Below, piece after piece: positions 7,456 to 31,380 of a stretch of DNA of 34,317 bases. The stretch is from a virus, in the IMG/VR virus record IMGVR_UViG_3300023184_000010, positions 1 to 34,317 of that record. The stretch is one strand, 5' to 3'. The notes below the pieces were generated by a model. It made no database searches. It had not been told where the DNA came from and saw only the letters and a list, made by a program, of their open reading frames with translations. The position numbers were made by a program, and so were the translations under genes. Position 1 is the stretch's first letter. Each line of letters starts with the position of its first letter.

Positions 7456-7476
7456 TCATAAGTTTTGTCAAAACAG

Positions 7477-7497
7477 AAAGGCTCTTCGGAGCCTTTT
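7477..7497 (+). terminator. Intrinsic terminator after major capsid gene
   Basis: Perfect 8-bp stem AAAGGCTC / GAGCCTTT closed by a TTCG tetraloop (7485-7488) and running into T residues. It sits 22 nt after the capsid stop. A second weaker GGGC/GCCC hairpin follows (7503-7516). It would end the head transcript and separate it from the box-driven unit beginning at 7543. Confidence 0.85.
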
Positions 7498-7531
7498 CTC
7501 TTGGGCTTTCTGGCCCTATTTACAGGTGCCG

Positions 7532-7538
7532 CTAAATA
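7532..7538 (+). promoter_or_regulatory. TAAATA-type late promoter box, leaderless start at 7543
   Basis: CTAAATA ends 4 nt before ATG 7543, just downstream of the capsid terminator. There is no Shine-Dalgarno sequence before this ATG and no -35 hexamer 17 nt upstream of the box (TGGCCC there). Terminator, box and start codon in succession argue that this is a promoter producing a leaderless or nearly leaderless mRNA. Confidence 0.6.
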
Positions 7539-7542
7539 CTTG

Positions 7543-8136
7543 ATGAGTCAAGATCTTAACCAACCCGAATACCTAGACAACACCGATCCAGAGAAAAATT
7601 ATGACTATCAGCGTCAGGATCATGGTGGCACAATTACCAACCACAACGGCATGGCAGATGCCTTGCTAAAAAACGACAAATTGTATCGTAGCATGAAGGG
7701 CGACTGGAGCCGCACAGACTGGAACAACAGCAAGAATATCAAGATCACAACTGGTCGTGAAGATGGCAAGTTCTATATCCGTCGCGAGCAAATGAACGCA
7801 GAAGCAGTGGCACGCCGCTGTCAAGAATACCGCAAAGCAGCCGAAGCAGGCTATCCTGATCCCTTAGCACCCATCATGCCCGACGGCACACTGGGCTGGA
7901 AATGGATGGACTTGCCCAATGTTGTAAGCATCCGTATAAGCGATCAATACTTTGGTGGCATGCCTTGGTCAGCAATCAAACATGATCGTGTGCTCAAAGC
8001 ACAATTCTACAGAGTGGTGCAACAAGAATGCCCACAGTACATTTGTTATCCAGGTGGCCGACTGCCTATCCCAATTGATGTTCCGTATCCTGCCAAGGCT
8101 GGTGAACAAAAGTTCTTTAAAGGACATACCATATGA
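7543..8136 (+). CDS. Hypothetical connector-region protein (197 aa)
   Basis: The frame is open upstream to 7465, but that segment contains the terminator and the promoter box, so ATG 7543 (MSQDLNQPEYLDN) is preferred. The protein is soluble, polar and Trp/Tyr-containing, with a helical stretch REQMNAEAVARRCQEYRKAAEAGYP and DLPNVVSIRISDQYFGGMPWSAI. Its stop overlaps the start of the adaptor gene (8133) by four bases, so the two are translationally coupled. It lies where head-completion or stopper proteins are encoded. No family is recognised. Confidence 0.85.
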   Translation: MSQDLNQPEYLDNTDPEKNYDYQRQDHGGTITNHNGMADALLKNDKLYRSMKGDWSRTDWNNSKNIKITTGREDGKFYIRREQMNAEAVARRCQEYRKAAEAGYPDPLAPIMPDGTLGWKWMDLPNVVSIRISDQYFGGMPWSAIKHDRVLKAQFYRVVQQECPQYICYPGGRLPIPIDVPYPAKAGEQKFFKGHTI

Positions 8137-9125
8137 GTTTCCAAATCCCCACAGGCACAGCCCTGGTTGACTTTTTGAAAGATTTCACAGGATCGACCAA
8201 CACTGACGAAATCAAACAGTGTATCTATCTTGCTGAACTGTCAATGCGTAACATTGAACTGCCAGCCCTGCGCTCGGATCCATATGCGGCCGAAAACATT
8301 GGTACTGCCAATGCACTGGGACAGGTTCCTATTCCAGCAGACATGAACAAGCCAATCTTGTTCTTCAAACAAGGCTCACCTGGTGGTGGCACTTCAAGCC
8401 AAACAGGTCCTTGGATTGTGTATGACCGTATTGGTGACAGAGATATCATCACACAGAGCATGATTGCTCAGTTGTATCTTGCTCCTGTGAATGTGCCTGC
8501 TGTTATTCGCGGCAAATTCTCAGAAGTTTATGACTCTTATCAATTCCTACCCTGGGTTGGTGAAGGTGCCTTGATCAACTTGTACTACTACAAGGCCTGG
8601 CCCTTGTTGTTCTCACCTGTGGATGACACAGTTATTTCAACCACAGGCACAGTGGGATCAATCTCTGGTGCAGGTCCCTGGACAGCAACTATAACAGGCA
8701 TGAGCACCACAGCAGGACTTGCTGTGGGCGATGTGATCACTGCCACAGCAGGCACAGGCACATTAGGTGGTGGTGCAGGTGTGCGCACTGTGGCAACCAT
8801 ACCTGGCAACACATCAATAACATTCACCAGCACAGGTGGCACCACACCCACAGCCGGCACAGTTACCAATGTAAAACTCACAGAACAAGTGGTTGAGACC
8901 AACGCTGTGTTGCAAACATGGTCAGAAGGCTATGTGTATGCCAGCCTACGCGAATACTACATCAAGCGTCACAACAACGATGACGCCGCAATCTATCAGC
9001 AGAAATACCAGGATGCCTGGAACATTGTGGAAGATCAAAACAACCTTGGCAAATGGTCTGGTGGACACACAAGACTAACATCAGTTTGGCAGCCGCGCCA
9101 GTATCGCCAATACAACATCAAATAA
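8133..9125 (+). CDS. Head-tail adaptor, P22 gp4-like, with inserted beta domain (330 aa)
   Basis: The N-terminal (1-163) and C-terminal (about 250-330) parts form the expected adaptor: helical N-terminus, INLYYYKAWPLLF before the insert, then a Trp/Tyr-rich helix (WSEGYVYASLREYYIKRHNN) and the long final helix DDAAIYQQKYQDAWNIV. Between them residues about 164-248 are a Gly/Thr-rich low-complexity beta domain (GDVITATAGTGTLGGGAG) interrupting the family's core. The protein would bind under the portal and extend it toward the hub. The start overlaps the previous stop, with AAGGACATACC as ribosome site. A T7 gp11-like tubular protein is the alternative name. Confidence 0.75.
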   Translation: MSFQIPTGTALVDFLKDFTGSTNTDEIKQCIYLAELSMRNIELPALRSDPYAAENIGTANALGQVPIPADMNKPILFFKQGSPGGGTSSQTGPWIVYDRIGDRDIITQSMIAQLYLAPVNVPAVIRGKFSEVYDSYQFLPWVGEGALINLYYYKAWPLLFSPVDDTVISTTGTVGSISGAGPWTATITGMSTTAGLAVGDVITATAGTGTLGGGAGVRTVATIPGNTSITFTSTGGTTPTAGTVTNVKLTEQVVETNAVLQTWSEGYVYASLREYYIKRHNNDDAAIYQQKYQDAWNIVEDQNNLGKWSGGHTRLTSVWQPRQYRQYNIK

Positions 9126-9135
9126 GGATACCGCA

Positions 9136-12100
9136 ATGAGTGGAAATTCAACAAGTTTATACAGCACAAGCACAAGCAACATCACGCTGTCAAGCAACAA
9201 CTTGACCACGCTGTATCCTGGCGGTTCAGGCACAGTGACACCAGCACAACCCTACGGCAACGCCAATGTGGTAGGCCTACTGGCAGCCGGCACAGATGGT
9301 GCCAACACAGTGGCCAATATTGTGGCCACAGGCAATATTACAGGCAATTACTTCATTGGTAATGGATCACAGTTAACAGGTGTTGTTGCTGTCAGTGCCA
9401 ACACAGCCAATACTGCTGTGACCGTGACTGGCAATGCACAGCCCAATATCACCAGTGTAGGCACACTCACAAGTTTATCCAGCACAGGCAATGTCACCGG
9501 AGGCAATCTGCGGACCGCAGGTGCGGTCAGTGCCATTGGCAATGTCACAGGCAATTACTTCCTGGGTAATGGTAGCCAACTCACAGGATTACCAGCCACA
9601 TATTCCAACGCCAATGTGGTTTCGTTAATGGCCAACTTTGGTTCAAACACCATATCAACCACAGGCAACATCACCGGTGGATTTATCTTAGGTAATGGAT
9701 CACAGTTGACAGGATTACCTGCCACCTACTCAAACGCCAATGTGACTTCATTGTTGGCCAATTTTGGCTCAAATGCCATATCAACCACAGGCAATATCAC
9801 AGCCGGCAATGTGATAGCAGGTGCTGTGAGTACTCCTACTGTGTACAGTCAAGGTATGGCTACACAAGGTTATGACTATGTGCAGATGCAATACAGCAAT
9901 AGTGTTGCACTGCCTGTAACACCATATGACATAGGCACAGGATCATGGTTCTACCTGGATGCAGGTGGCGGTGTATTCCAATCAAACACAACAGGCACAC
10001 TCCAAACAGTTGTACAAGGCAATGATGGTAGTGTTAGTGCCACGGGCAATATCACAGCACCTTACTACTTTGGTAATGGCTCACAACTTACAGGTTTACC
10101 TGCCACATATTCAAATGCCAATGTCACCAGTTTGCTGGCCAATTTTGGATCAAATACTATATCAACCACAGGCAATATCACAGCAGGCTATGTTGTGGGC
10201 AATGGTTCGTTGCTGACCAGTATTACCGGTGCCAATGTCACAGGTTCAGTGGCACAGGCCAACACAGCCAACACAGCCAACGCGGTAGCAGGCGCCAATG
10301 TCACAGGTCAGGTGGCCAATGCTCTAGTTGCTGGCACAGTTTATACCAATGCACAACCTAATATTACTTCCCTTGGCACACTTTCAAGTGTAACTGTGAC
10401 AGGTAATATCACAGGTGGTAATTTGTTGACCACAGGTGTGGTATCAGCCACAGGCAACATTACCACGCAAGGCTTTTTTATAGGCAATTTCCAAGGTAAC
10501 ATCACAGGCAACTTGACAGTTCCTGGCTCAAACACCGAAGTAATCTACAACAACTCAGGCAATGCCGGAGCCAGTTCAGGATTTACATTTAATCAAGCAT
10601 CAAATGTGGTCACAGTGGCAGGCAATATTGCAAGTGGTAATATTTCAACCACAGGCAATGTCACAGGCAATTATGTGATTGGCAATGGTTCATTGCTGTC
10701 CGACATCACAGGCGGCAATGTCACAGGATCTGTAGCACAGGCCAATCAAGCCAACACAGCCAATGCTGTGGCAGGTGCCAATGTGAGTGGTCAAGTGGCC
10801 AATGCCCTGGTAGCAGGCACAGTTTATACCAACGCACAGCCCAACATTACTAGTGTTGGCACACTCACAAGTTTGTCAACCAGTGGTAATATCTCAGCCG
10901 CAGGCAATATTCAAGGCAATGTGTTCATTGGCAACGGTGCTGGATTGACCAATATTCCTGGCGGCAACATTGTGGGTGGGTATGGCAACGCCAATGTAAG
11001 CAATTTCCTTGCTACAGGATTTGGTTCAAACACCATAAGCACAACAGGCAATATTTCTGCAGGCAACATCTTGCTGGGTGATCTAGTGGGTGCTGGCAAT
11101 GTCACAGCCACTGGCAATATCACAGGTGGGTTATTTACGGGTAATGGTTCTGGACTAAGTTCAATCACAGGTGCCAATGTCACAGGCACAGTGGCCAATG
11201 CCACCTTTGCCACCACAGCAGGCTCAGCAGGCACAGCCAACACAGCAGTCACAGTCACAGGTAATGCACAGGCCAATATCACCAGTCTAGGCATATTGAC
11301 CAGCCTTTCAGTGAGTGGCAATACCACCAGCGGCAATGTGTTGACTTCAGTGGTGCAAGCCACAAATTCAGCAGGTTTGAGTCTAAAGAATGCATCCGGC
11401 ACAACACAGGCCAGCATGGGTGCCGGTGGTGGTGACAACTTTGCCATCAATGTCAGCACCAACCTGAATGGCAACAATGCTCAGATTGATATTTCACCCA
11501 CAGGCACTGGCCATGTGCATATCAAACCCACCGGCACCGGTGCTGTAGAAATTGCACCCACCAGCACTGGTTCAATCAACAACATGATCATTGGCAATAT
11601 CACACCGGCTGCTGTTTCAGCAACCACTGTGAGTGCCACTGGCAACATCACCGGCAACTACTTCATTGGTAATGGATCTCAACTGACAGGATTACCTGCT
11701 GGTTATTCAAATGCCGATGTGGCCACATTTTTAGCCAACTTTGGCAGCAATAGTATATCAACAACAGGCAATGTCACAGCCAGTTATTTTACAGGCAATG
11801 GATCATTGCTCTCAAGTATTACAGGTGCCAATGTCACAGGCACAGTGGCCAATGCCACCTACGCACTCAATGCCAATGCCGCAACCTATGCTGATCAAGC
11901 CAATTACGCAAATATTGCAAACAGTGTAAGTGGCTCAAATGTGAGTGGCCAGGTGGCCAATGCTCTAGTTGCTGGCACAGTGTACACAGCCGCACAACCC
12001 AATATCACAAGTGTTGGCACATTGACTAGTGTTGCTGTCACAGGCAACGCCACAGCAGGTAATCTATTGGCAGGCGGTGTAGTTTCAGCCACAGGCAATG

Positions 12101-14904
12101 TCACAGGCAATTACTTTATTGGTAATGGATCACAATTGACAGGCATTGTTGCCAGTTCCAATGCGGCTGGTTCCAACACACAAATACAATACAACAATGC
12201 CAATGCATTTGCTGGCAATGCTGGCTTGACATTCAATCAGACCACAGGCAATGTAGCCTTGGCCAATCTTGTGGTCAGTCCAGGAGTGGCAGGCAATGCC
12301 AACGCAGGCAACAATGCTGTGATCATAAACACAGCCACTCCGTTCAATGGTATATCAGCCACAGCCACCGGCTTGCAAGCAGGTCAAACTGTGTATGGCA
12401 CCGGCAACTATGGCAACCTGGCAGTGGGGGGTCTGCTGTTTAGCACACCCAAAGGTGCAAGAAATCTGTTCTGGGATAGTGCCAATGTGTCGGATGGATC
12501 AAATGTGGGCGTGCGATACGGCGGCCTGGCCGTGCCCTCAACAGTTACCTTGCAAGGTAATTTGACCAGCAACAACAATTTCATACGAGCATTTATCACT
12601 ACTTTGCAAGTGGGTGGCGGAGCCTCGGCCAACACCTTTACCAATGTCGGTCAAGGTGGTCAAGCCCTGGGTGCAGCCGCTTTTGCCACCACCATAGGTG
12701 AGGGTCCTGGAACGGTGACTCCACGAGTGGGCAATACCACTGTGCGAGATACTGTGAGTCTCAACAGTCAGATCACCGTTTGGAATGGTTCAAATGTGAG
12801 CAATGCTGTGTCAGCAGTATATAATTTTACCAATAGCACTGGTAATATTACCAATGCCTTAGGCGTGGTCACGCAATTTAGTGGCACAGTAAACACCACA
12901 CCAACCAATGTGGTGGGATATTACATGCCAACCAACACAGGTTCATTGGCAGGATTCAATTCAGCCAATGCCATGCGAGCGGCCACCAATTATTACTTCC
13001 TAAAGAATGATGATGCAGTGGCACAGACACAGTTGGGCAGTTTGAGAAGTTACAATGAGTTCCGTTATGATACTGCCACCACAGGCAACATAACCCTTGA
13101 CAAAAACAATGCACAGGTGCAATACATAGCACCCACTGCCAATGTGACCATAGATGGCTATGCCAATATGGTTACCAGTTTGAGTGATAGTGTAAACACG
13201 GATCAAGAAATTGACACACTCACAATCCTGGTGCAACAAGGTGCAACTCCTTACACAGTCACACTACCAACAGGTGCCACATATCAATATGCAGGCAACA
13301 TTTCAACTGTGCCTGCAGTGGCCAACTCAAGAAGCATACTAACAGTAGTGGCTGCCAATGTGTCTGGCACTGTGAACTATTTTACCACGGTTCAGAGTGA
13401 TCAAGCAGTTGTTTCCAGTTATGGCGACGCCAATGTAGCCACATTCCTGGCTGCGTTTGGTTCAAATACCATAAGCACAACAGGCACAGTCACAGCAGGC
13501 AATGTCACCGGAGGCAACATACTCACAGGTGGCATAATGTCAGCCACAGGCAATGTCACAGGCAATTACATCCTGGGCAATGGTTCGCAGTTGACAGGTA
13601 TCACAGCCACAGCCAACGCTGCCGGATCAAACACACAGATACAATACAACAATGCCGGTGCGTTTGCTGGCAGTGCCAACTTGACATTTGACAACACCAC
13701 AAATACCCTGGCAACTACCACGGTCACAGCCACTGCCAACATCAACGGTGCTGCTTTAAGCATCACAGGCAACACAACAGGTTCCAACATATTCAGTTAT
13801 CCCACCGCCAATGGTGTTATTGTCAACAGCACAGTGGCCAGCAATGTCAACGCCACAATAAATCCTTATAGAATTGTTTATGGCAATGGTTTCCGTGGTG
13901 ATTATGGTGCCAATGCTGATCCAGCCAACTTCAATAGAGGCAGTCTATTTGCGGCCATTGGCACTCAGGTGCTGGCCAACGCAGATACAACCAACTCATC
14001 CAGATTATTGACATCAAGTTATTTCATGGATCTGAACCAAGGTGCCAACATCACCAACACCAACAAACGCTATTCAGCCGGTGGATTTTATTCACAGATA
14101 GGTAATGGTAACATCACACTCACAGCCGCTAGTGGAACCAATATGGGTGCTGTTCTCAACGGTGGCACACAAACGCTCCTAATTGGTAACAGTGCCAATG
14201 CCAACCTAGGTGCTGTGAGTGTGAGTCATGCGGCAGCATTGAATTCAACTTTTATTGCCAGCACAGGAGGCACTGTGGGCAATGCAACAGGTGCCTTGAT
14301 CACCCTGCAGACAGCGGCTGCCAATGCTTCATTCACCACCAGCCAGATTGGCTACACAGCACAATTCCTGGGCACCACAGGAACACCAGCAGGCAATGTG
14401 ATTGGTTATTACATGCCATCAAATGTCACAACAAACTATGGATTTAATTCAACCAATCTAAACCGTGCAGCCACCAATTATTACTTCCTTAAGAACGATG
14501 ATGATGTGGCACAAAATCAACTGGGTTCACTCAGAGCCTATCACACATTCCAGGCCACAGGAACCACCACAGGCACCTGGAACATTGACAAGGCAAACGG
14601 TCAAGTTCAAGCCATCAGCACAACGGGTAATGTCACCATTGGATCATACACCAACTTTGTGACCACTGCCAATGATGGCACCAACAATGATTCACAAACA
14701 GACACAGTCACACTGATCATTGAACAAGGTGCAACACCTTACACAGTCACAATGCCCACTGGTAATGCCGCAATCAGGTATGCTGGCAATGTCAGCACAG
14801 TGGCCAACACAGCAAATTCAACCACAATGATTGCGATTGTTGCATATCGTACTGCGGCCAACGCCACAAGTTATCTAACCACAATTTCACCAGGATTTGT
14901 CTAA
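9136..14904 (+). CDS. Giant tail fibre / adhesin with GNGSQLTG repeats (1922 aa)
   Basis: Largest gene in the genome. Residues about 60-1040 are built from a degenerate repeat centred on GNGSQLTG (at least 12 copies of the GNGS/A-x-L core), alternating with TTGNITAGN, ANVTGxVA and LVAGTVYTxAQPNITS segments, a Gly/Asn/Thr pattern suited to a trimeric beta fibre. The C-terminal half carries two related modules (about residues 1255-1420 and 1753-1922), each with GYYMP, ATNYYFLKNDD, QLGSLR and EQGATPYTVT-type text. These may be receptor-binding or shaft-capping units. AAGGA precedes ATG 9136; the stop overlaps the next start (TAATG). No signal peptide or enzyme motif is seen. Confidence 0.85.
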   Translation: MSGNSTSLYSTSTSNITLSSNNLTTLYPGGSGTVTPAQPYGNANVVGLLAAGTDGANTVANIVATGNITGNYFIGNGSQLTGVVAVSANTANTAVTVTGNAQPNITSVGTLTSLSSTGNVTGGNLRTAGAVSAIGNVTGNYFLGNGSQLTGLPATYSNANVVSLMANFGSNTISTTGNITGGFILGNGSQLTGLPATYSNANVTSLLANFGSNAISTTGNITAGNVIAGAVSTPTVYSQGMATQGYDYVQMQYSNSVALPVTPYDIGTGSWFYLDAGGGVFQSNTTGTLQTVVQGNDGSVSATGNITAPYYFGNGSQLTGLPATYSNANVTSLLANFGSNTISTTGNITAGYVVGNGSLLTSITGANVTGSVAQANTANTANAVAGANVTGQVANALVAGTVYTNAQPNITSLGTLSSVTVTGNITGGNLLTTGVVSATGNITTQGFFIGNFQGNITGNLTVPGSNTEVIYNNSGNAGASSGFTFNQASNVVTVAGNIASGNISTTGNVTGNYVIGNGSLLSDITGGNVTGSVAQANQANTANAVAGANVSGQVANALVAGTVYTNAQPNITSVGTLTSLSTSGNISAAGNIQGNVFIGNGAGLTNIPGGNIVGGYGNANVSNFLATGFGSNTISTTGNISAGNILLGDLVGAGNVTATGNITGGLFTGNGSGLSSITGANVTGTVANATFATTAGSAGTANTAVTVTGNAQANITSLGILTSLSVSGNTTSGNVLTSVVQATNSAGLSLKNASGTTQASMGAGGGDNFAINVSTNLNGNNAQIDISPTGTGHVHIKPTGTGAVEIAPTSTGSINNMIIGNITPAAVSATTVSATGNITGNYFIGNGSQLTGLPAGYSNADVATFLANFGSNSISTTGNVTASYFTGNGSLLSSITGANVTGTVANATYALNANAATYADQANYANIANSVSGSNVSGQVANALVAGTVYTAAQPNITSVGTLTSVAVTGNATAGNLLAGGVVSATGNVTGNYFIGNGSQLTGIVASSNAAGSNTQIQYNNANAFAGNAGLTFNQTTGNVALANLVVSPGVAGNANAGNNAVIINTATPFNGISATATGLQAGQTVYGTGNYGNLAVGGLLFSTPKGARNLFWDSANVSDGSNVGVRYGGLAVPSTVTLQGNLTSNNNFIRAFITTLQVGGGASANTFTNVGQGGQALGAAAFATTIGEGPGTVTPRVGNTTVRDTVSLNSQITVWNGSNVSNAVSAVYNFTNSTGNITNALGVVTQFSGTVNTTPTNVVGYYMPTNTGSLAGFNSANAMRAATNYYFLKNDDAVAQTQLGSLRSYNEFRYDTATTGNITLDKNNAQVQYIAPTANVTIDGYANMVTSLSDSVNTDQEIDTLTILVQQGATPYTVTLPTGATYQYAGNISTVPAVANSRSILTVVAANVSGTVNYFTTVQSDQAVVSSYGDANVATFLAAFGSNTISTTGTVTAGNVTGGNILTGGIMSATGNVTGNYILGNGSQLTGITATANAAGSNTQIQYNNAGAFAGSANLTFDNTTNTLATTTVTATANINGAALSITGNTTGSNIFSYPTANGVIVNSTVASNVNATINPYRIVYGNGFRGDYGANADPANFNRGSLFAAIGTQVLANADTTNSSRLLTSSYFMDLNQGANITNTNKRYSAGGFYSQIGNGNITLTAASGTNMGAVLNGGTQTLLIGNSANANLGAVSVSHAAALNSTFIASTGGTVGNATGALITLQTAAANASFTTSQIGYTAQFLGTTGTPAGNVIGYYMPSNVTTNYGFNSTNLNRAATNYYFLKNDDDVAQNQLGSLRAYHTFQATGTTTGTWNIDKANGQVQAISTTGNVTIGSYTNFVTTANDGTNNDSQTDTVTLIIEQGATPYTVTMPTGNAAIRYAGNVSTVANTANSTTMIAIVAYRTAANATSYLTTISPGFV
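9330..12180 (+). repeat. Degenerate coding repeats of the fibre shaft
   Basis: Repeated DNA such as the GGTAATGGATCACAGTTAAC-type segment recurs about every 120-500 bp, encoding the GNGSQLTG unit. Copies differ mostly at third positions and keep the reading frame. This region is prone to recombination and assembly collapse. Confidence 0.8.
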
Positions 14905-15836: not shown

Positions 15837-15850
15837 AAGGAAAATCTCAA

Positions 15851-18762: not shown

Positions 18763-18791
18763 TGCTAATCCACCTATAAAAACAGGACCCA

Positions 18792-18798
18792 ATAAATA
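18792..18798 (+). promoter_or_regulatory. TAAATA-type late promoter box, leaderless start at 18804
   Basis: ATAAATA ends exactly 5 nt before ATG 18804, so a T4-late-type start site falls on the A of the ATG. There is no properly spaced Shine-Dalgarno sequence (the GGA at 18785-18787 is 16 nt away). No -35 element. It would drive the internal-protein gene block. Confidence 0.55.
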
Positions 18799-18803
18799 TC
18801 ATT

Positions 18804-22415: not shown

Positions 22416-22447
22416 CCTGGCTTCTAGGACCCAAAAACATGAATACA

Positions 22448-22454
22448 CTAAATA
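22448..22454 (+). promoter_or_regulatory. TAAATA-type late promoter box upstream of 22477 gene
   Basis: CTAAATA in the 61-bp gap between the 1203-aa and 237-aa genes. The leader after it contains a strong GAGGAGAAG ribosome site (22464-22472) before ATG 22477. The segment AGGACCCAA occurs upstream both here (about 22427) and before the 18792 box. Confidence 0.5.
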
Positions 22455-22476
22455 TTAGATCACGAGGAGAAGCACA

Positions 22477-23190: not shown

Positions 23191-23200
23191 GGTATAAACA

Positions 23201-25885: not shown

Positions 25886-25895
25886 GGAAACAACA

Positions 25896-26501
25896 ATGGC
25901 ATTTGATATACAAGCCGCAAAAGCCGCAGGATACACAGATGATGAAATCAATGCGTATATGCAGGCTAAACCCAAAACTGAAACAATTGCACCAGTAGCA
26001 CCTGGTCAAGAAGTAGATCCTGGTGAGCCACCTCCACCTCCTGGTGCTGAAACTTATGAGCAAGCAGGTTCGGGCAATTACATGCCGGGCTTGGCCACTG
26101 CTGGTATAGGTGCGGCGGCTGCCGCAGTACCATTAGGTATTGGTATTGGTGTTGGCAAATATGGTGGTCGTATGTTGGATACCATGAAAAATGTCATGGG
26201 CAGCGGTACAAGTATTCCAGTTACCACAACACCTGCACCAAATCCTGCCGCTATAAATTTACCAGCAGGACCTCAAATGGCGCCTGTACAAACAGCACCA
26301 GCGACTCCAGCACCACAGGTGCCACAAATGCAAGCGGCAAAAAGTATTGTGCAGAAGTTGGCATTAGATAAAATACTTAAAGGCGCTGGTGTATTAGGTG
26401 CTGGTATGGCCATAGGTCAAGGCCTGTTTGGTACCAGCGATGAAGAGATTGCTACTTTAAAAGCAGCCGAAGCACGCCGTAAGGCATTAGGACAAAGATG
26501 A
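25896..26501 (+). CDS. Small Ala/Pro-rich virion-region protein (201 aa)
   Basis: Begins MAFDIQAAKAAGYTDDEINAYM, a short UBA-like/helical motif often seen at the start of phage internal proteins, then a Pro-rich linker, a hydrophobic Ala/Gly segment LATAGIGAAAAAVPLGIGIG (about 66-85) that could insert in a membrane, another Pro-rich part and a Gly-rich helix GAGVLGAGMAIGQGLFG. The Shine-Dalgarno sequence is AAGGAAAC. The stop overlaps the Dps gene start (ATGA at 26498), coupling the two. Probably part of the ejection set; function not established. Confidence 0.75.
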   Translation: MAFDIQAAKAAGYTDDEINAYMQAKPKTETIAPVAPGQEVDPGEPPPPPGAETYEQAGSGNYMPGLATAGIGAAAAAVPLGIGIGVGKYGGRMLDTMKNVMGSGTSIPVTTTPAPNPAAINLPAGPQMAPVQTAPATPAPQVPQMQAAKSIVQKLALDKILKGAGVLGAGMAIGQGLFGTSDEEIATLKAAEARRKALGQR

Positions 26502-26977
26502 ACTCATTAGAACAGTTACACGAAGAATTAACCAGAACTTACGGTAGTGTATTTGTGGCCTATCAAAGAGCACACATAGCACACATCAACACTAGAAGTC
26601 GCAACTTCTATGGCGATCACAAGTTGTTGAAACACATCTACGAATTCTTTCAAGAAACCATAGATGTGGTAGGCGAAAAGATACAGGCATGTGGTCTGGG
26701 TGGTGTGCCCACCAGCATTGCGGATACCATGGCCTTGAGTTCAGTTGAAGACTTGCCTGTTGAAGGTTCTGCAGATGAACTGCTACACACAGTCTGGGAA
26801 GATATCAACACTCTAATCGATGTGTATCATGACCTGGCTGATGCTGCCAGAGAAGTCAACTATCCTGATGTGGACAACATGGCAGCGGATCACATTGGCA
26901 CCATTGCTACCTTTGCCTGGAAGATCGAAGCCACACTGGACCTTGAAGGTCGCCACACTCGTAGAGCACCAATTTAG
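26498..26977 (+). CDS. Dps-type ferritin-like DNA-protection protein (159 aa)
   Basis: Length and helical pattern match Dps. The intersubunit ferroxidase ligands are all present with exact spacing: His29 and His41 twelve residues apart, then Asp56 (+15) and Glu60 (+4), the same intervals as His51, His63, Asp78 and Glu82 of E. coli Dps. The family's GPxFYxLH segment appears as RNFYGDHKLLKH, and the C-terminal helix (DNMAADHIGTIATFAWKIEA) matches the last Dps helix. Family function: dodecameric cage that oxidises Fe(II) with peroxide and in some members coats DNA. There is no obvious Lys-rich N-terminal DNA-binding tail. It is coupled by ATGA overlap to the last internal-virion gene, so it is co-expressed with structural genes. 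Confidence 0.85.
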   Translation: MNSLEQLHEELTRTYGSVFVAYQRAHIAHINTRSRNFYGDHKLLKHIYEFFQETIDVVGEKIQACGLGGVPTSIADTMALSSVEDLPVEGSADELLHTVWEDINTLIDVYHDLADAAREVNYPDVDNMAADHIGTIATFAWKIEATLDLEGRHTRRAPI

Positions 26978-26980
26978 GTT

Positions 26981-27024
26981 AACACTCCCAGAGCACTATC
27001 AAGAACTGGGTGATTTTGAGTGTT
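26981..27024. terminator. Hairpin between convergent Dps and GNAT genes
   Basis: AACACTC (26981-26987) pairs with GAGTGTT (27018-27024), and an inner CCAG pairs with CTGG (27006-27009). It lies between a rightward gene end (26977) and a leftward gene end (27038). It could act as a bidirectional terminator, though no long T run follows on either side. Confidence 0.4.
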
Positions 27025-27037
27025 TCTAGCCCAGGCA

Positions 27038-27550
27038 TCATGGAATAGGCAGGCCGGTTTGTACGGTGCTCAACCTTTTGTAACAATAACTGCCACGCAC
27101 ATCGTAGCCTAGTTTCTTGTGTATTTTCAAAAATCCCTCTTGATCTCTGCGCATGGTGGTTGAACACACCACTGGCACACCAATACTGTGTGCCCATTCT
27201 TCCCACAACACAATCATGCCTGTAACCAGGCGTAATCGCTGTCGCACAGGCAGTGACAAGTCCACATGTGCCATCTTGGCACAGATCATGGCCTCATCTG
27301 ACCAAGGCATTTTTTCGTCGCGGATAGCCCAGGTATAAGCCAAGATAGCGTGGGTTTCACTACATCTAGCAACTTTTAACAACTCAGTTCCAGGATTGTA
27401 AAATTGTGCCACGGTGGCCAGTGTTAGATTCCTTGCATAGGCAATGGGATCCGGTGTGAACACCTGATCTATTTCTGTTTCAAAATGATCTTGTGCCATT
27501 TGTACCATGTGTGGTATGTCCAGGCCCGAAGTTGATTCCCAAGTCCACAT
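27038..27550 (-). CDS. GNAT-family acetyltransferase-like protein (170 aa)
   Basis: Leftward gene. ATG at 27550 overlaps the stop of the upstream HNH-like gene (TAATG), so the longer frame to 27652 is not used. An N-terminal DIPHMVQMAQDHFETEID resembles GNAT beta1-alpha1. Motif A would be around residues 91-125 (MAHVDLSLPVRQRLRLVTGM and following helix), and GFLKIHKKLGYDVRGSYCYK (139-158) is a typical GNAT C-terminal motif. The acetyl-CoA loop is not canonical (RLRLVTG). The substrate is unknown; phage GNATs of this type are often virion-associated or host-modifying. It runs against the late genes. Confidence 0.65.
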   Translation of the reverse strand: MWTWESTSGLDIPHMVQMAQDHFETEIDQVFTPDPIAYARNLTLATVAQFYNPGTELLKVARCSETHAILAYTWAIRDEKMPWSDEAMICAKMAHVDLSLPVRQRLRLVTGMIVLWEEWAHSIGVPVVCSTTMRRDQEGFLKIHKKLGYDVRGSYCYKRLSTVQTGLPIP

Positions 27551-27822
27551 TATTGATAATGCTTTCGAATTAATTTTGAATGTTCGCGTCTGGTGATCAG
27601 GTGTATGTTGTTGGGTGTCCAGGGCCCGTCCATGTCTATGCGGGCAAGACACAGGCTGTCTCGTGTGCGTCCTCTGCGTTGCCAGTTAGGTAGCCAGATA
27701 TCACGCCATGTTTCCCATGGCAAATTCCAACTCTCTCCGCGCAGTCTTGCGCTGACTCTATGATAACCAAATTGCACATACAGTCGATGTAAATGTGGAT
27801 CAGGTCCAGATATCCAAGGCAT
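27550..27822 (-). CDS. HNH-like endonuclease fragment or small nuclease (90 aa)
   Basis: Leftward gene upstream of the GNAT gene; ATG at 27822 chosen over an in-frame TTG at 27834. The C-terminal half reads LPNWQRRGRTRDSLCLARIDMDGPWTPNNIHLITRRE in overlapping segments; the core RIDMDGPWTPNN (61-72) followed by IHLITRREH matches the C-terminal part of small phage HNH proteins (pattern R-x-D-x-D-G-x-Y/W-x-P-x-N). The usual first histidine pair is not clear, so activity is uncertain. A free-standing homing-type nuclease would fit its inverted position and coupling to a second cargo gene. Confidence 0.5.
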   Translation of the reverse strand: MPWISGPDPHLHRLYVQFGYHRVSARLRGESWNLPWETWRDIWLPNWQRRGRTRDSLCLARIDMDGPWTPNNIHLITRREHSKLIRKHYQ

Positions 27823-27916
27823 AATCAAATCCAAAAAATCGGGGTGTCAGTGGCGTGGATCGGTATAGGACGATCAAAAATGGCGGTATTTGATCTAACT
27901 TGAAAGGACTCAAATT
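27823..27916. other. Divergent intergenic region between HNH-like and 47-aa genes
   Basis: About 94 bp separate the leftward start (27822) and rightward start (27917). GAAAGGA (27902-27908) is the ribosome site of the rightward small gene. I see no convincing -35/-10 pair in either direction; the leftward strand has only an isolated TATACC. Confidence 0.5.
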
Positions 27917-28060
27917 ATGAAACAACCTATCACTTTACCTACAGGCTTCATTTTTAGAGGGAGACCCGATCTGTCTCTGCGTTTAACATCAGTGGCGCGA
28001 TTGCCATTGATGTCAGCACCACTGACAATGTTATTTAGCAACCAGTTGCATTTTACCTGA
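27917..28060 (+). CDS. Small hypothetical protein (47 aa)
   Basis: ATG 27917 is preceded by a good GAAAGGACTCAAATT ribosome site. The peptide MKQPITLPTGFIFRGRPDLS continues with a basic, Leu-rich helix-like tail and ends at TGA 28058-28060. No family is recognised. The opposite strand of its 3' end holds a CTAAATA box (28032-28038), so the region may have a dual role. Moderate support: ribosome site and open frame only. Confidence 0.45.
   Translation: MKQPITLPTGFIFRGRPDLSLRLTSVARLPLMSAPLTMLFSNQLHFT
28032..28038 (-). promoter_or_regulatory. Leftward TAAATA-type box upstream of HNH-GNAT operon
   Basis: On the minus strand the text is GCTAAATAACA, the same extended form as at 2348 and 31368. 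It points toward the HNH-like gene start at 27822, about 200 nt downstream, and would give a long leader antisense to the 47-aa gene. No nearer start codon with a 5-nt spacing is present. Confidence 0.4.
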
Positions 28061-28065
28061 AAATG

Positions 28066-28094
28066 TTGCTTTTTTTTGGTTTGTCATATATACT
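28066..28094 (+). promoter_or_regulatory. Sigma70-type promoter for the 28115 gene
   Basis: TTGCTT (28066-28071), 17-bp spacer containing a T run, then TATACT (28089-28094). Start site expected near 28101, with AAGGG before ATG 28115. This is close to host consensus (4/6 at -35 and 5/6 at -10) and suggests early expression of the CxxC protein. Confidence 0.7.
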
Positions 28095-28114
28095 ATTACA
28101 AAGGGCAAAAATTA

Positions 28115-28567
28115 ATGAAACATAGCGTTTCCATTTCTGATCGACATTTACATCACCAAGTTGATGTTGTGGTCACACCCAACTTAAATCACTATGCCAA
28201 ACTGGTATGTAGAGATTGTAATGGTGCATGGGTGCAATGGTTATCTCGCGACGCTACTGAACAATTGATTGGCCCACAGGCAACCAAACAACAAAAAACC
28301 ACACAGGCAGACTGGTCAACCACACATGCCAAAGAACGCCAATTCTACACAAGTTATCAGCAACCCACTTTGAAATTACCAAGAACACCCACACAACTCA
28401 TACGCGATCGACTGGCATTGACAGGATATTCACGCTATAATGGCAACAGTATCTATACTATTCCAGCAGATTACTTACAGGCATTATTAGACACCAACAA
28501 GATCACACGCAAGGAAGACAGGCATGAAATTCAGGCAGCAATCCGATTACAACAAACCGGGACTTAA
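28115..28567 (+). CDS. CxxC zinc-knuckle-like accessory protein (150 aa)
   Basis: ATG 28115 (MKHSVSISDRHLHHQVDV) follows AAAGGGCAAAAATTA and a sigma70 promoter; the frame is open further upstream, but that part overlaps the promoter. HYAKLVCRDCNGAWVQWLS (26-44) contains a Cys32-x-x-Cys35 knuckle with a pattern seen in small phage and cyanobacterial proteins of unknown role. A C-terminal helical domain follows (about 88-150) with RTPTQLIRDRLALTGY and IPADYLQALLDTNKITRKED. Possible nucleic-acid binding; it could be a transcription or replication accessory, but that is inference. Confidence 0.75.
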   Translation: MKHSVSISDRHLHHQVDVVVTPNLNHYAKLVCRDCNGAWVQWLSRDATEQLIGPQATKQQKTTQADWSTTHAKERQFYTSYQQPTLKLPRTPTQLIRDRLALTGYSRYNGNSIYTIPADYLQALLDTNKITRKEDRHEIQAAIRLQQTGT

Positions 28568-29040
28568 CCTAGTCCTCCTGAGATTTGACCCAGTAGTATA
28601 GCATAGAAGTGACCATGAACCTCGCTACCTATACCAACAGTTGGACATGCCAAGAGTAAGGAATAAACATCTCCTGTGATGAACAGGAACAAGACTGTGT
28701 GCAAAGCAGTTACGCCAATCAGCCGTGATTGAGTTAAAATTGACGATGATAAACGGTACCCAAACACGCACTCACCTGCGTGGCAGGGTTCCTTTTGGCA
28801 AGAATGATTACGGTAATGAATGATATATGATAACAACAACAACTAGTCGGTCAGCGTCTAAAGACGCCGCCCACACAGATGTCAAAACCACTTCGTGGTC
28901 TCCTTTGACATCTATTGACCTGTTGCACATCTCAAAGAAAGAGATGCAATCAATGAGCACAAGAGACGAAGTCGATGGTGCGAATGACTCAACGCAAGTT
29001 GAGTCCCAAAGGCTCGAGTTACGACTCGATAAATTACACT
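28568..29040 (+). ncRNA. Chain of at least eight stable hairpins: candidate structured RNA or origin
   Basis: No confident gene covers 28568-28826. Hairpins in order: TCCTGT/ACAGGA (28672-28688); CAATCA-GCCG-TGATTG (28716-28731); CACGCA/TGCGTG (28765-28782) inside GGtACCC/GGGTtCC (28755-28792); GCGTC-TAAA-GACGC (28854-28867); GATGTCAAA/TTTGACATC enclosing ACCAC-TTC-GTGGT (28878-28912); TTGC..ATCTC/GAGATGCAA (28923-28949); GACTCAAC-GCAA-GTTGAGTC (28986-29005); CGAGT-TACG-ACTCG (29015-29028). Two have GNRA- or UNCG-like tetraloops. Different stem sequences with preserved pairing suggest a selected structure. Roles compatible with this: regulatory or decoy RNA, 5' leader of the 29058 operon, or a replication origin in a genome with no replication genes. 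No known RNA family is recognised and no tRNA fold is present. Confidence 0.5.
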
Positions 29041-29045
29041 TGTAA
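28827..29045 (+). CDS. Doubtful 72-aa ORF over the hairpin chain
   Basis: ATG 28827 opens a Ser/Thr/Lys/Glu-rich frame (MITTTTSRSASKDAAHTDVK onward) ending at TAA 29045, 12 nt before the next gene. There is no good ribosome site (GATATATG before it). The sequence consists largely of inverted repeats, which explains its low-complexity peptide. Either a short disordered protein or, more likely, a chance frame in a structured RNA. Confidence 0.3.
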   Translation: MITTTTSRSASKDAAHTDVKTTSWSPLTSIDLLHISKKEMQSMSTRDEVDGANDSTQVESQRLELRLDKLHL

Positions 29046-29057
29046 AAAGGAAATCAA

Positions 29058-29285
29058 ATGAAAACTTATCAACCCGAAAAAAACAACACTGAATTTTGGC
29101 GTCGCATTCACAGTCTGCCTGTGGACACTGAACAATCCTTGCAGGAATTCTGGCAATTGATACATGAACCTGGTGCTGAATATTCGGCTGGTATACTGGA
29201 ATACATCCAAAGAGAATGCCGTTTCATGGGAATCACCACGGAAGAATTTTGGAATCGCCCCAAGGACAACAATGCCACAATTTAA
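29058..29285 (+). CDS. Small hypothetical accessory protein (75 aa)
   Basis: ATG 29058 has a strong AAAAAGGAAATCAA ribosome site. The peptide is acidic and Trp-rich: MKTYQPEKNNTEFWRRIHSL, then SLQEFWQLIHEPGAEY and TEEFWNRPKDNNATI. It is predicted helical, with a repeated EFW motif (EFWRRI, EFWQLI, EFWNRP). Its stop overlaps the next gene's start by 14 bases. No family is recognised; small acidic early proteins in this position can be host-takeover factors, but nothing here shows that directly. Confidence 0.75.
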   Translation: MKTYQPEKNNTEFWRRIHSLPVDTEQSLQEFWQLIHEPGAEYSAGILEYIQRECRFMGITTEEFWNRPKDNNATI

Positions 29286-29667
29286 ATATCAAGATCGCCT
29301 GGAGATGCCCGCAAGGCCAGGTCGTAACTATGCCACTGTGTATGTCAAGCAACGCCAGGGCGAGCGTGATCGCTTGCACACCTGGCTGCGCCAAGTGGGT
29401 TCAGACATTGCCACTGTGTGTTCGCGCAGACCAGATCTAGAAACTTGGTTTTGCAATCCTGACCCCAAATTTCGCAAGCGAGAAACTGCTGGCTATTACT
29501 CACCTGCTGAACTGCTACACCATATGTTGAGTCAACTGGATGACAACAAAGACATTCCAGAGGCTATGCTGGGTCGTTGGAATCGCTGGTGTCGGGACAC
29601 GGAATGGGAGATTGACATGGTGGCTGATCAGCCACCAACTCCGGGCTTTCACGCTTTTGTTGTTTAA
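29272..29667 (+). CDS. Hypothetical accessory protein (131 aa)
   Basis: ATG 29272 (MPQFKYQDRLEMPARPGRN) has CAAGGACAACA upstream and overlaps the previous gene by 14 nt; the longer frame from 29164 would overlap by 122 nt and is rejected. The body is mixed: ATVYVKQRQGERDRLHTWLR, SRRPDLETWF, RETAGYYSPAELLHHMLSQL, then a Trp-rich helix GRWNRWCRDTEWEIDMV. No catalytic motif recognised. The last 104 bases overlap a leftward frame (29564-29776) and contain a perfect 20-bp palindrome. Confidence 0.75.
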   Translation: MPQFKYQDRLEMPARPGRNYATVYVKQRQGERDRLHTWLRQVGSDIATVCSRRPDLETWFCNPDPKFRKRETAGYYSPAELLHHMLSQLDDNKDIPEAMLGRWNRWCRDTEWEIDMVADQPPTPGFHAFVV

Positions 29668-29776
29668 ACTGCGTATATAACTGCTGTACTGGTGCGGGCA
29701 TGGGTCGTGTGAGAGTGATACTCCTTTGCCACACTCCTGTCTTCAAGCGTCGATAGGTGGTGTGTGTTTGTCTCAT
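29564..29776 (-). CDS. Hypothetical leftward protein coupled to the 138-aa gene (70 aa)
   Basis: ATG 29776 overlaps the TGA of the upstream leftward gene (ATGA), the same coupling used elsewhere in this genome. The basic N-terminal half (MRQTHTTYRRLKTGVWQRSI) looks coding; the last third lies antisense to the 131-aa gene and has a Pro/Ser/Asp-rich, shadow-like tail. It may therefore be real with an opportunistic 3' extension. No family is recognised. Confidence 0.45.
   Translation of the reverse strand: MRQTHTTYRRLKTGVWQRSITLTRPMPAPVQQLYTQFKQQKRESPELVADQPPCQSPIPCPDTSDSNDPA
29618..29637. repeat. Perfect 20-bp palindrome in convergent overlap
   Basis: The arms TGGTGGCTGA and TCAGCCACCA are exact reverse complements with no loop. 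Because it is symmetric, both opposing frames encode VADQPP here. It may be a protein-binding site or cruciform/terminator element; no T run follows. Confidence 0.6.
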
Positions 29777-30189
29777 GTGATGGGGATAGAAATCATGTTG
29801 CCTTTGCTTGATGCTATGACCTGTGTTTGTATGGCCGCGTCTGGATCCAGTTCAAAGCGTTCCACACCACAAAAAGGCAACAGTATGGGATCGTGATATA
29901 TCCACATGCCCGCAGGATCCGGTGCTGAGGTAAGTGATTGTCTTGCCACATATTCTCTAGGTATACGCAACACATACACCGGCCAGTGCTGATAGTTGTT
30001 GAGTTGACGATAGCGTGTGTCTGCTGTGGCCGGTCGGCTATACAGATACATGAATGGTGTGGTCATCTGCCCTGTTGCAGGATTCAGCGTGGTCCGCCGC
30101 ACAGGTTGGATGGTTCTGGTCTGCTCGAACTCCTGGTAGTCTGCTTCGTTCATGGCCAGATAGTAATACTTTAGTTTGGGGATCTTCAT
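29773..30189 (-). CDS. Hypothetical leftward accessory protein, possible ADP-ribosyltransferase-like fold (138 aa)
   Basis: ATG 30189 (MKIPKLKYYYLAMNEADYQE) is preferred to an in-frame TTG at 30207, because TTAAATA lies 4 nt before this ATG. The layout KYYYLAMNEADYQEFEQTRTI near the N-terminus, PVYVLRIPREYV in the middle and MWIYHDPILLPFCGVERFEL near the C-terminus recalls small ADP-ribosyltransferase-superfamily proteins (DUF4433/Tpt1-like) in strand order, but no diagnostic H-Y-E or R-S-E triad is clear. That is a weak suggestion only. It is coupled to the 70-aa gene downstream. Transcribed leftward, divergent from the sigma70 unit at 30247. Confidence 0.65.
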   Translation of the reverse strand: MKIPKLKYYYLAMNEADYQEFEQTRTIQPVRRTTLNPATGQMTTPFMYLYSRPATADTRYRQLNNYQHWPVYVLRIPREYVARQSLTSAPDPAGMWIYHDPILLPFCGVERFELDPDAAIQTQVIASSKGNMISIPIT

Positions 30190-30193
30190 GTTG

Positions 30194-30200
30194 TATTTAA
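30194..30200 (-). promoter_or_regulatory. Leftward TAAATA-type box, leaderless start at 30189
   Basis: The minus strand reads TTAAATA-CAAC-ATG: the box ends 4 nt before the start codon and there is no Shine-Dalgarno sequence. The box lies within a near-palindrome with arms GTTGT and ACAAC, so an operator function is the alternative. Confidence 0.5.
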
Positions 30201-30210
30201 ACAACACCCG

Positions 30211-30243
30211 AAACCCGCCAGAACAAAGTAATACTTTGGGTTT
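30211..30243. promoter_or_regulatory. Nested inverted repeat abutting the 30247 promoter (candidate operator)
   Basis: CAAAGT-AAT-ACTTTG (30224-30238) is a perfect inverted repeat, enclosed by AAACC (30211-30215) / GGTTT (30239-30243). It lies between two divergent genes and ends 3 bp before the -35 hexamer. A repressor site or a leftward/rightward terminator are both possible. Confidence 0.45.
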
Positions 30244-30246
30244 ACA

Positions 30247-30275
30247 TTGACTGAATATTCAAACGAGCATATAAT
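30247..30275 (+). promoter_or_regulatory. Near-perfect sigma70 promoter for the 30310 unit
   Basis: TTGACT (30247-30252), exactly 17 bp, then TATAAT (30270-30275). Start expected about 30282, followed by AAGGAGA before ATG 30310. This is the strongest host-type promoter in the window and marks likely early or constitutive expression. Confidence 0.85.
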
Positions 30276-30309
30276 ACACACATGTTCAACAGTATCAAGG
30301 AGATACAAA

Positions 30310-30546
30310 ATGGCAACTTGGGGCAGTAGAAATATCACAGTTTATTTGGCAGTCACGCTCAACTCAGATCCCACTCAGCGTGTGCTAGTCAAGACCACAG
30401 AGGACCGCATTGGTGTCAAACGCCGTGCAATTCAATCAGACATTGCATATCAACGATTCTCACGCTGGGCACCATTTGCCAATGCTGTGCTGGATCAAGA
30501 TTACACCATTCGCCTGCTCAACGAAGATTTAACACCATACAATTAA
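30310..30546 (+). CDS. Small hypothetical protein from strong promoter (78 aa)
   Basis: ATG 30310 (MATWGSRNITVYLAVTLNSD) has AAGGAGATACAAA; an upstream in-frame TTG lies inside the -35 box and cannot be the start. Beta strand then helix composition: RVLVKTTEDRIGVKRRAIQS, IAYQRFSRWAPFANAVLDQD and a short acidic C-terminus. No motif or membrane segment. Strong promoter plus strong ribosome site imply high early expression, as for host-takeover peptides, but function is unknown. Confidence 0.8.
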   Translation: MATWGSRNITVYLAVTLNSDPTQRVLVKTTEDRIGVKRRAIQSDIAYQRFSRWAPFANAVLDQDYTIRLLNEDLTPYN

Positions 30547-30558
30547 GGAGTGCCTGAA

Positions 30559-30756
30559 ATGACACCTGAACAACAGGACAGTTTACAAAAACAAAAGATG
30601 TGGCGTTTGCTCACAGGTGAACAACAACGCCAGGAGCAAGAGTATGAAGAATACTATCGTCGTAACCCACCACCCCAACTGCGTCCTGTTTGGCAACAAG
30701 CACTGATTGTGGGAGTGCCTGTAGTCATGCTGATTGCAATAGTTTGTTCAATTTAA
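30559..30756 (+). CDS. C-tail-anchored membrane protein (65 aa), lysis candidate
   Basis: ATG 30559 is chosen over GTG 30550 because AAGGAG (30545-30550) sits eight nt before it. Residues 1-47 are very polar (Gln/Glu-rich, YEEYYRRNPPPQLRP); residues 48-65 form one hydrophobic segment ending at the C-terminus (ALIVGVPVVMLIAIVCSI). This is the only clear single-span small membrane protein seen. Such topology occurs in some holin-like or antiholin proteins, but also in other small phage membrane proteins, so a lysis role is inference. It shares the transcript from 30247. Confidence 0.75.
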   Translation: MTPEQQDSLQKQKMWRLLTGEQQRQEQEYEEYYRRNPPPQLRPVWQQALIVGVPVVMLIAIVCSI

Positions 30757-30768
30757 AGAGGCTCAGTC

Positions 30769-30775
30769 CTAAATA
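30769..30775 (+). promoter_or_regulatory. TAAATA-type late promoter box, near-leaderless start at 30782
   Basis: CTAAATA ends 6 nt before ATG 30782. No Shine-Dalgarno sequence precedes this ATG and no -35 hexamer lies 17 nt above the box (TTCAAT there). The predicted transcript would have 0-1 leader bases. Confidence 0.55.
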
Positions 30776-30781
30776 CACATT

Positions 30782-30922
30782 ATGACACCATCAAGATTAC
30801 TAGAAGTTGCTCGACTGCGTAGCGTGGTTGCCAGAATGGTACGCATCTGGGGCACAGACGCCGCACTAGAAATGCTACGCCAAGTTATTGAATCTGAACT
30901 GTTGAAGGAACCTCAAGCATAG
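30782..30922 (+). CDS. Small helical protein (46 aa) at the start of the packaging block
   Basis: Open frame ATG 30782 to TAG 30922: MTPSRLLEVARLRSVVARMV, then RIWGTDAALEMLRQVIESEL and a short polar end. It forms two amphipathic helices. Framed by a TAAATA box upstream and a strong terminator (30965-30988) downstream, which makes it a self-contained single-gene unit and supports that it is real despite its size. No family recognised; a small DNA-binding or assembly factor is possible. Confidence 0.65.
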   Translation: MTPSRLLEVARLRSVVARMVRIWGTDAALEMLRQVIESELLKEPQA

Positions 30923-30964
30923 AAAACCCCTAGGCTCTCCTTGCAAAGACACTAGGAAGGTTTC

Positions 30965-30988
30965 AGCCCACAATTCGGTGGGCTTTTT
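30965..30988 (+). terminator. Intrinsic terminator before small-terminase candidate
   Basis: Perfect 7-bp stem AGCCCAC / GTGGGCT with loop AATTCG, followed directly by TTTTT. A further CCTAG/CTAGG pairing lies just upstream (about 30930-30958). It ends the 46-aa unit 10 bp before the next TAAGTA box. Confidence 0.85.
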
Positions 30989-30998
30989 CTTGACTGCA

Positions 30999-31004
30999 TA
31001 AGTA
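30999..31004 (+). promoter_or_regulatory. Variant late box TAAGTA, leaderless start at 31010
   Basis: TAAGTA is followed by exactly 5 nt and ATG 31010. It differs from the TAAATA consensus at one base. It stands right after a terminator, and the start codon lacks a Shine-Dalgarno sequence. Confidence 0.45.
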
Positions 31005-31009
31005 TTAGC

Positions 31010-31372
31010 ATGACAACGGAAAAGAATTCAATAAAACCCGCTAGAAAGAAGGCACCCTCACGCGGTGGTGCTAGGCCTGGCTCGGGTAGACCCAAAGGTT
31101 CAGGCACCAAGGTCAAGTTGGAAGACTTGATGTTGAACATTGAACTGGAGACTGGTCGCACCTATGGAGAACTCTTGGCACACAACTATGCCGGAGCCAT
31201 TCAGCGTAGTGACTGGAACGGTGTGCGGGACTATGACAAAGCGTTCATGAACAAGATGCTGGCCGACAAATCAGAAGTCACAACAGTGGAGTCGGATGAT
31301 GTTGTGGCACAGAAACAGCGGGCTTTTGCAGAAGCCATAGCCCAAATCGCTGGTATAAAGCCAGCCAACTAA
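31010..31372 (+). CDS. Candidate terminase small subunit (120 aa)
   Basis: Begins with a basic N-terminus (KPARKKAPSR) and a GGARPGSGRPKG motif (19-30), common at the start of small terminase subunits, then a helical core LEDLMLNIELETGRTYGELL, AYDY-like stretch GVRDYDKAFMNKMLADKSEV and a C-terminal helix QKQRAFAEAIAQIAG. The protein would recognise pac/cos DNA and regulate TerL. It is separated from terL by six genes on the circle, which is unusual but known. Assignment is by motif and composition. Confidence 0.6.
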   Translation: MTTEKNSIKPARKKAPSRGGARPGSGRPKGSGTKVKLEDLMLNIELETGRTYGELLAHNYAGAIQRSDWNGVRDYDKAFMNKMLADKSEVTTVESDDVVAQKQRAFAEAIAQIAGIKPAN

Positions 31373-31375
31373 ATA
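31369..31375 (+). promoter_or_regulatory. TAAATA-type late promoter box, leaderless start at 31381
   Basis: CTAAATA overlaps the stop of the upstream gene and is followed by exactly 5 nt and ATG 31381. No Shine-Dalgarno sequence. The extended form GCTAAATAACA at 2348 shares the CTAAATAACA core. Confidence 0.55.
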
Positions 31376-31380
31376 ACACT

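Follow-up and report, generated by a model that had tools for sequence, protein, structure and literature searches.

A CTAAATA box in two spacing classes in a family of ~34 kb podoviruses: candidate single-element late promoters, about a third of them set for leaderless mRNAs

Could a promoter of the T4 late type operate in a small podovirus, and what would read it there? The question is raised by the IMG/VR virus record IMGVR_UViG_3300023184_000010, a stretch of 34,317 bases that was analyzed over its whole length and is called the window in the following. T4-type late promoters (TATAAATA) are read by gp55 together with gp33 and the gp45 clamp, and belong to large T4-like phages. An earlier note, made from the letters of the window alone, had proposed that TAAATA or a close variant lies 4–6 nt before an ATG at six places, that these boxes are T4-like late promoters without a −35 hexamer, that their +1 falls at the A of the ATG or beside it to give leaderless mRNAs, and that the genome has no recognizable gp55-type sigma. 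In this study, the box was followed in the window and through a set of related genomes, and the proteins of these genomes were searched for a factor that might read it.

The ends of the window carry an exact direct repeat of 127 bases (1–127 and 34191–34317), and the cluster 13 gene spans the join (33560–34317, then 1–159). The window is therefore probably a complete genome of ~34.2 kb, circular or circularly permuted; the length of the repeat may reflect the k-mer overlap of an assembler. The cluster 13 protein itself (~267 aa, with 56% mean column identity over 17 relatives) gave no match in database, PDB and fold searches. A structural module of the SU10 podovirus type is present, with the portal and capsid families both above the curated Pfam cut-offs (Table 1). 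A search of IMG/VR with the capsid protein found 567 stretches that encode a relative. The comparison set consisted of 18 genomes: the window and 17 near-full-length relatives of 30–37 kb, taken whole, with a capsid identity to the window of ~78–94%. In one relative of 36.9 kb (G008), the last four genes repeat the clusters of the first four in unchanged order, which suggests a long terminal repeat or redundancy. The closest named relative is MW202484, with 61% capsid identity. Its TAAATA sequences lie almost only within genes and are not placed ahead of them, and the box system is therefore not common to the whole wider lineage. GTDB genomes (genome_contigs) were searched for relatives in order to find the host, and none were found.

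Table 1. Boxes, promoters, terminator-like hairpins and principal genes in the window
Feature	Position	Strand	Details
Terminase gene	476–2083		
CTAAATA box, leadered	2349–2355	+	24 nt before portal GTG 2380; leader site AGGAAAA
Portal gene, SU10-type	2380–4653		Start GTG 2380; PF23899, 160.6 bits (cut-off 30)
CTAAATA box, leadered	5067–5073	+	49 nt before ATG 5123, gene upstream of capsid gene
Major capsid gene, SU10-type	6283–7455		PF17236, 114.7 bits (cut-off 24.1)
Intrinsic-terminator-like hairpin and T run	7477–7498	+	3′ of major capsid gene, upstream of 7533 box
CTAAATA box, putative leaderless	7532–7538	+	4 nt before ATG 7543
Conserved post-capsid gene, cluster 4	7543–8136	+	Start corrected to ATG 7543
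TAAATA box, preceded by A, putative leaderless	18793–18798	+	5 nt before ATG 18804, 1203-aa gene
CTAAATA box, leadered	22448–22454	+	22 nt before ATG 22477; GAGGAG present
TAAATA box, preceded by T, putative leaderless	30194–30199	−	4 nt before ATG 30189, gene 29773–30189
Sigma70-type early promoter, TTGACT-17-TATAAT	30247–30275	+	11/12 consensus bases
CTAAATA box, putative leaderless	30769–30775	+	6 nt before ATG 30782
46-aa early-region protein, divergent small family	30782–30922	+	
Terminator hairpin, then T run	30965–30984	+	Upstream of 30999 box
TAAGTA variant box, putative leaderless	30999–31004	+	5 nt before ATG 31010
CTAAATA box, putative leaderless	31369–31375	+	5 nt before ATG 31381

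All six sites of the earlier note are present in the window, with the gaps that it gave; the box begins one base further to the right wherever the preceding base had been counted. Three more boxes on the plus strand had been missed (TAAATA at 2350, 5068 and 22449), which lie 22–49 nt before genes led by a Shine–Dalgarno sequence. Another TAAATA match, at 29283, was rejected as a promoter; it is inside coding sequence. The start of the post-capsid gene, ATG 7543, is in frame with the open reading frame 7465–8136, and orthologues start at the corresponding ATG. In the box at 31369–31375, the TAA doubles as the stop codon of the preceding gene. The product of gene 31010 resembles, by eye, a terminase small subunit.

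The total number of TAAATA sequences in the window is not significantly raised (12 versus 8.8 expected); the signal lies in its placement before an ATG. The arrangement TAAATA-N4–6-ATG was observed five times, against a mean of 0.66 in 500 dinucleotide shuffles of the window, only one of which reached five. In the same shuffles, CTAAATA averaged 1.96 against seven observed (2/500 reached seven), and CTAAATA-N4–6-ATG averaged 0.15 against three observed (0/500). In the 17 relatives, TAAATA-N4–6-ATG occurs 77 times and the reversed control pattern 19 times. Over all 18 genomes, with an expectation derived from coding sequence, no hexamer is more enriched than TAAATA in the non-coding sequence ahead of genes (118 versus 1.6 expected, with 25 on the opposite strand); CTAAATA is found 73 times there versus 0.6 expected, and the Shine–Dalgarno hexamer AAGGAA (66 versus 2.9) ranks below TAAATA, all of these being counts that are not independent because the genomes are mutually related. 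Furthermore, among 15 hexamer permutations at 157 loci of the relatives, TAAATA has by far the highest rate of an ATG at 3–8 nt (0.31–0.34 versus a background of ~0.12), with the TAAATA-to-ATG peak at a gap of 5. The pattern near starts is thereby confirmed, is stronger than could be seen from the window alone and is conserved in related genomes: the box is a real, conserved and oriented regulatory feature that occurs in two spacing classes. When IMG/VR was scanned for the pattern CACTAAATANNNNTATGA, most of the contigs returned were unrelated or chance matches; eight of the 80 that were checked share proteins with the family.

The two classes are evident from the distance between box and start, which was taken from genes called in all 18 genomes by one simple caller, on which the start positions depend. 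The distribution over 160 boxes is bimodal: 52 lie at 4–6 nt, 38 of these at exactly 5 nt, and the rest are mostly at ~15–27 nt, with just two boxes at 9–14 nt. A Shine–Dalgarno-like sequence is present at 72 of the 89 leadered sites versus six of the 57 near sites, and the start codon is ATG at every one of the 52 sites with a gap of 4–6 nt. At the gap-5 sites, which represent 13 gene families, the base before the ATG is T (29) or C (9) and in no case a purine (0/38), unlike in the genes as a whole, where A is the commonest base before the start. Bacterial RNA polymerase usually prefers a pyrimidine at −1 and a purine at +1. The bimodality would be explained by a fixed start ~6 nt after the box, since the RNA then starts at the ATG itself or extends far enough ahead of it to hold a Shine–Dalgarno site; gaps of 9–14 nt would be few because leaders of intermediate length serve neither mode of initiation. 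These regularities are as expected if the mRNA of gap-5 sites starts on the A of the ATG. The near-class boxes, at which an ATG stands at the expected +1 and Shine–Dalgarno sequences are rare, would give leaderless mRNAs. About a third of the boxes have a spacing that would give leaderless mRNAs; the general proposal of leaderless messages is not supported in its original form, since most boxes have a leader with a Shine–Dalgarno site.

The position of the box is also conserved from gene to gene. Ahead of the post-capsid gene, it lies at a gap of 4–6 nt in 16 of 18 genomes according to the gene caller, and in 17 when ATG 7543 is used for the window. Ahead of gene 31010, TAAATA stands at 4–6 nt in 13 of 17 orthologues, and the other four (the window, G004, G005 and G007) have TAAGTA at the same place. 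The leadered sites are kept in a similar manner, at 20–27 nt from the portal gene in 15 of 16 genomes, at 17–25 nt in 17 of 18 orthologues of gene 22477 and at 43–51 nt from gene 5123, upstream of the capsid gene, in nine of 16 genomes. The minus-strand gene 29773–30189 has a box in three of four orthologues, two of them at a gap of 4–5 nt, and the family of gene 31381 (cluster 19) has a gap of 5 or 8 nt at eight of its ten boxes. The genes preceded in this way include structural and packaging genes, namely the portal gene, those before and after the capsid gene and large genes of the structural region. Of the 57 near boxes, 20 have a terminator-like hairpin in the 80 nt before them, versus 2.3% of random places, and such a hairpin is found upstream of the post-capsid box in most orthologues; because such hairpins are often just upstream, the near boxes appear to restart transcription after terminators. 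The box is presumably a promoter, and the genes behind it late genes.

No −35 hexamer accompanies the boxes, as the earlier note had stated, and TTGAC shows no positional signal. A −35 hexamer 16–18 nt from a −10 hexamer, as in sigma70 promoters, is missing from the boxes and present in separate early promoters. The flanks of the box are A+T-rich near −25 and −36. A palindrome or second element was also considered: TATTT, found ~16 nt upstream in ~10 of 160 sites (~ −27 to −23 relative to the deduced start) and chiefly ahead of the post-capsid gene, might act as such an element, but was set aside as too weak to count as a promoter part. The early promoters are found in a small variable region between a Dps-like gene and gene 31010, where many genomes carry textbook examples (TTGAC, 17 nt, TATAAT or TATACT), mostly 28–46 nt before small genes. 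Two promoter classes in one genome would fit an early/late programme.

Several other genes in and around this region were noted. The ferritin-like/Dps-like protein (26498–26977; PF00210, E = 1.1e-9; phrog_3636) is kept in 17 of 18 relatives and is also encoded on the otherwise different contig G018. A conserved early-region family at 27550–27822 on the minus strand (RGR..C..R.D...PW..DNV..ITR.EH) occurs in about half of the relatives and is HNH-type-like by eye, with no match in Pfam. The family of the 46-aa protein is present in eight of 18 genomes and at other loci, and in some relatives its sigma70 and TAAATA promoters overlap; a homologue search found no known counterpart, and, speculatively, this protein is the only candidate regulator that was noticed. 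Family scans recognized no replication gene in the window, region 26900–31600 included. In relatives, genes judged by eye to be primase-, helicase- or AAA-like vary in kind and in location.

Among known promoters, the late promoter of the T4-like phage Aeh1 is CTAAATA beginning at −12 (PMC1524935). The box described here is identical to it letter for letter, in the same register (C at −12 and last A at −6), without a −35 and upstream of presumed late genes. With its (A)CTAAATA core and no −35, the box resembles TATAAATA, the register having been deduced from the gap of 5 nt and the pyrimidine at −1. However, T4 boxes are mostly 24–28 nt from starts, whereas about a third are at 4–6 nt here, and the carrier of the T4-type system is a myovirus, whereas a ~34 kb podovirus with no gp55 homologue found is the carrier here. 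In the Ackermannviridae, a CTAAATA core also lies upstream of late genes, as the motif CTAAATAcCcc in EspM4VN (PMC7283392). CBA120, of the same family, is a myovirus of 157 kb in which gp55 and gp33 are annotated; it likewise has CTAAATA upstream of late genes, but as leadered sites only, with gaps of 25–37 nt or more, in the part of the genome examined. In gp55-encoding contigs, no excess was found at 4–6 nt (23 versus 30 for the control). From the T4 spacing and these counts, the leaderless spacing is a property of the present group and of three uncultivated contigs of 53–72 kb (G018, G025 and G026), and not of gp55 phages generally. In these contigs, too, TAAATA leads the upstream hexamers, and its gaps fall into a class at 5 nt and one in the 20s; they differ in being fragments with a T4-superfamily-like gene content, and no gp55 was seen in the fragments examined. 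G018 shares accessory genes with the podovirus group, and the tail sheath of G026 has 41% identity to that of PA5oct jumbo phages. A further contig of 90 kb (G023) was left out as apparently bacterial, with four sigma factors.

The other comparison is with phiEco32, likewise a podovirus with a single-element promoter lacking a −35; the portal and capsid of the window belong to SU10 families. The gp36-dependent middle/late promoters of phiEco32 consist of the single element tAATGTAtA with a start 6–8 bp downstream, and a leaderless arrangement is not reported for them (PMC8948821). Their consensus differs from the box, and no AATGTA-type hexamer is among the top 30 upstream hexamers of the 18 genomes. 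In summary, a T4-type or single-element late promoter is known, and the frequent leaderless spacing and the lack of a recognizable reader are the notable features here; no description of CTAAATA late promoters, leaderless spacing and a missing reader together was found in the open-access papers searched.

The searches for a recognizable reader were negative. The phrog_234 and Sigma70_r2 profiles matched none of 17 genomes at E ≤ 10, a gp55 HMM and HHalign gave chance-level scores only within the family, and CBA120 gp55 as a query matched nothing in the genomes. With CBA120 gp33 as the sole gp33 query, the best matches had E values of ~6 and above. A sigma of the phiEco32 gp36 type was not detected (best HHalign probability 7%). 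Thus, no gp55, phiEco32-type sigma or Sigma70_r2 was found in the 17–18 genomes searched, several of which have end repeats; a diverged analogue may be present, and the statement that no gp55-type sigma is recognizable stands after profile and HHalign searches of the family. Missed conserved open reading frames in the genomes included no sigma-like family, PDB profile searches with four conserved families of unassigned function gave chance-level matches only, and AlphaFold models of two conserved proteins of unassigned function gave no informative fold match in Foldseek. No sliding clamp is among the family-scan matches of the window. Of the proposed T4-type system, the promoter sequence is therefore matched, but the T4 protein machinery was not found and a T4-type mechanism is unproven.

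The reading that we consider probable is that the (A)CTAAATA boxes are single-element late promoters of the gp55 type, about a third of them leaderless, which are used by the host RNA polymerase with a factor that escapes recognition. The early region would be transcribed first, by the host RNA polymerase from ordinary sigma70 promoters. The polymerase would then be redirected to CTAAATA by a factor that is not recognizable by sequence and is most likely phage-encoded, in analogy to T4 gp55 or phiEco32 gp36. The box would act without a −35 hexamer and set +1 ~6 nt after its last A; a box 4–6 nt from an ATG would start a leaderless mRNA at the first base of the ATG or beside it, and one ~15–27 nt away would provide a short leader carrying a Shine–Dalgarno site. 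Packaging, head, tail and some accessory units would be driven in this manner. T4 and phiEco32 are precedents for phage promoters without a −35. The proposal of late promoters with +1 on the A of the ATG, still a prediction, is strongly supported at the level of sequence by conserved position, bimodal gaps, the exclusive use of ATG, the pyrimidine at −1, upstream terminators and the match to Aeh1.

The boxes could instead be promoters read by an alternative sigma of the host, or by an unusual housekeeping sigma, for which a phage factor would be unneeded. This is unlikely, although no phage sigma was found and G018, G025 and G026 combine other gene content with the same box and gap-5 sites, G018 sharing accessory genes as phages of one host might. 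Those contigs resemble pieces of T4-superfamily genomes, an indication of readers of the gp55 type. Moreover, TTGAC-17-TATAAT promoters are present in the same genomes, the housekeeping sigma of the host therefore has normal preferences, and TAAATA has neither the conserved final T of a −10 hexamer nor a −35.

A dependence of the small podoviruses on co-infection by a T4-superfamily phage, with their late promoters read by the gp55 of that helper, is very improbable. Virophages copy the late promoter of their giant virus, and the group would be a bacterial counterpart, a similarly improbable status, with its own capsid, lacking late-transcription and largely lacking replication machinery, and mimicking the late promoter of its helper. 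The identity of motif and register with gp55-type late promoters would be accounted for, the window has neither a sigma nor a recognized replication gene, and the same box and leaderless sites occur on contigs of T4-superfamily-like content; however, the genomes have a sigma70 early region of their own, some relatives carry primase- or helicase-like genes (by eye), and contigs that do encode gp55 lack the leaderless enrichment. Finally, it is hardly credible that the box serves translation, as a signal or as a stop/restart sequence (the TAA of the preceding gene, then a start), and is not a promoter. Near-class boxes do occupy the Shine–Dalgarno position, and a stop codon overlaps 10 of the 57 boxes in the near class and 22 of the 89 leadered ones, but the majority have no such overlap and many come after a terminator. 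The same box is also placed 15–27 nt before genes that have a Shine–Dalgarno site as well, and the effect is confined to TAAATA among its permutations.

On the favored reading of a single-element late promoter, the late genes in a widespread family of ~34 kb podoviruses appear to be driven by a gp55-type promoter with the very letters known from T4-like phages. Either these genomes would hold a new specificity factor, very small or highly diverged, or the factor would be borrowed from the host or from another phage. The family would also offer a natural series in which leaderless or Shine–Dalgarno initiation is chosen from one type of promoter.
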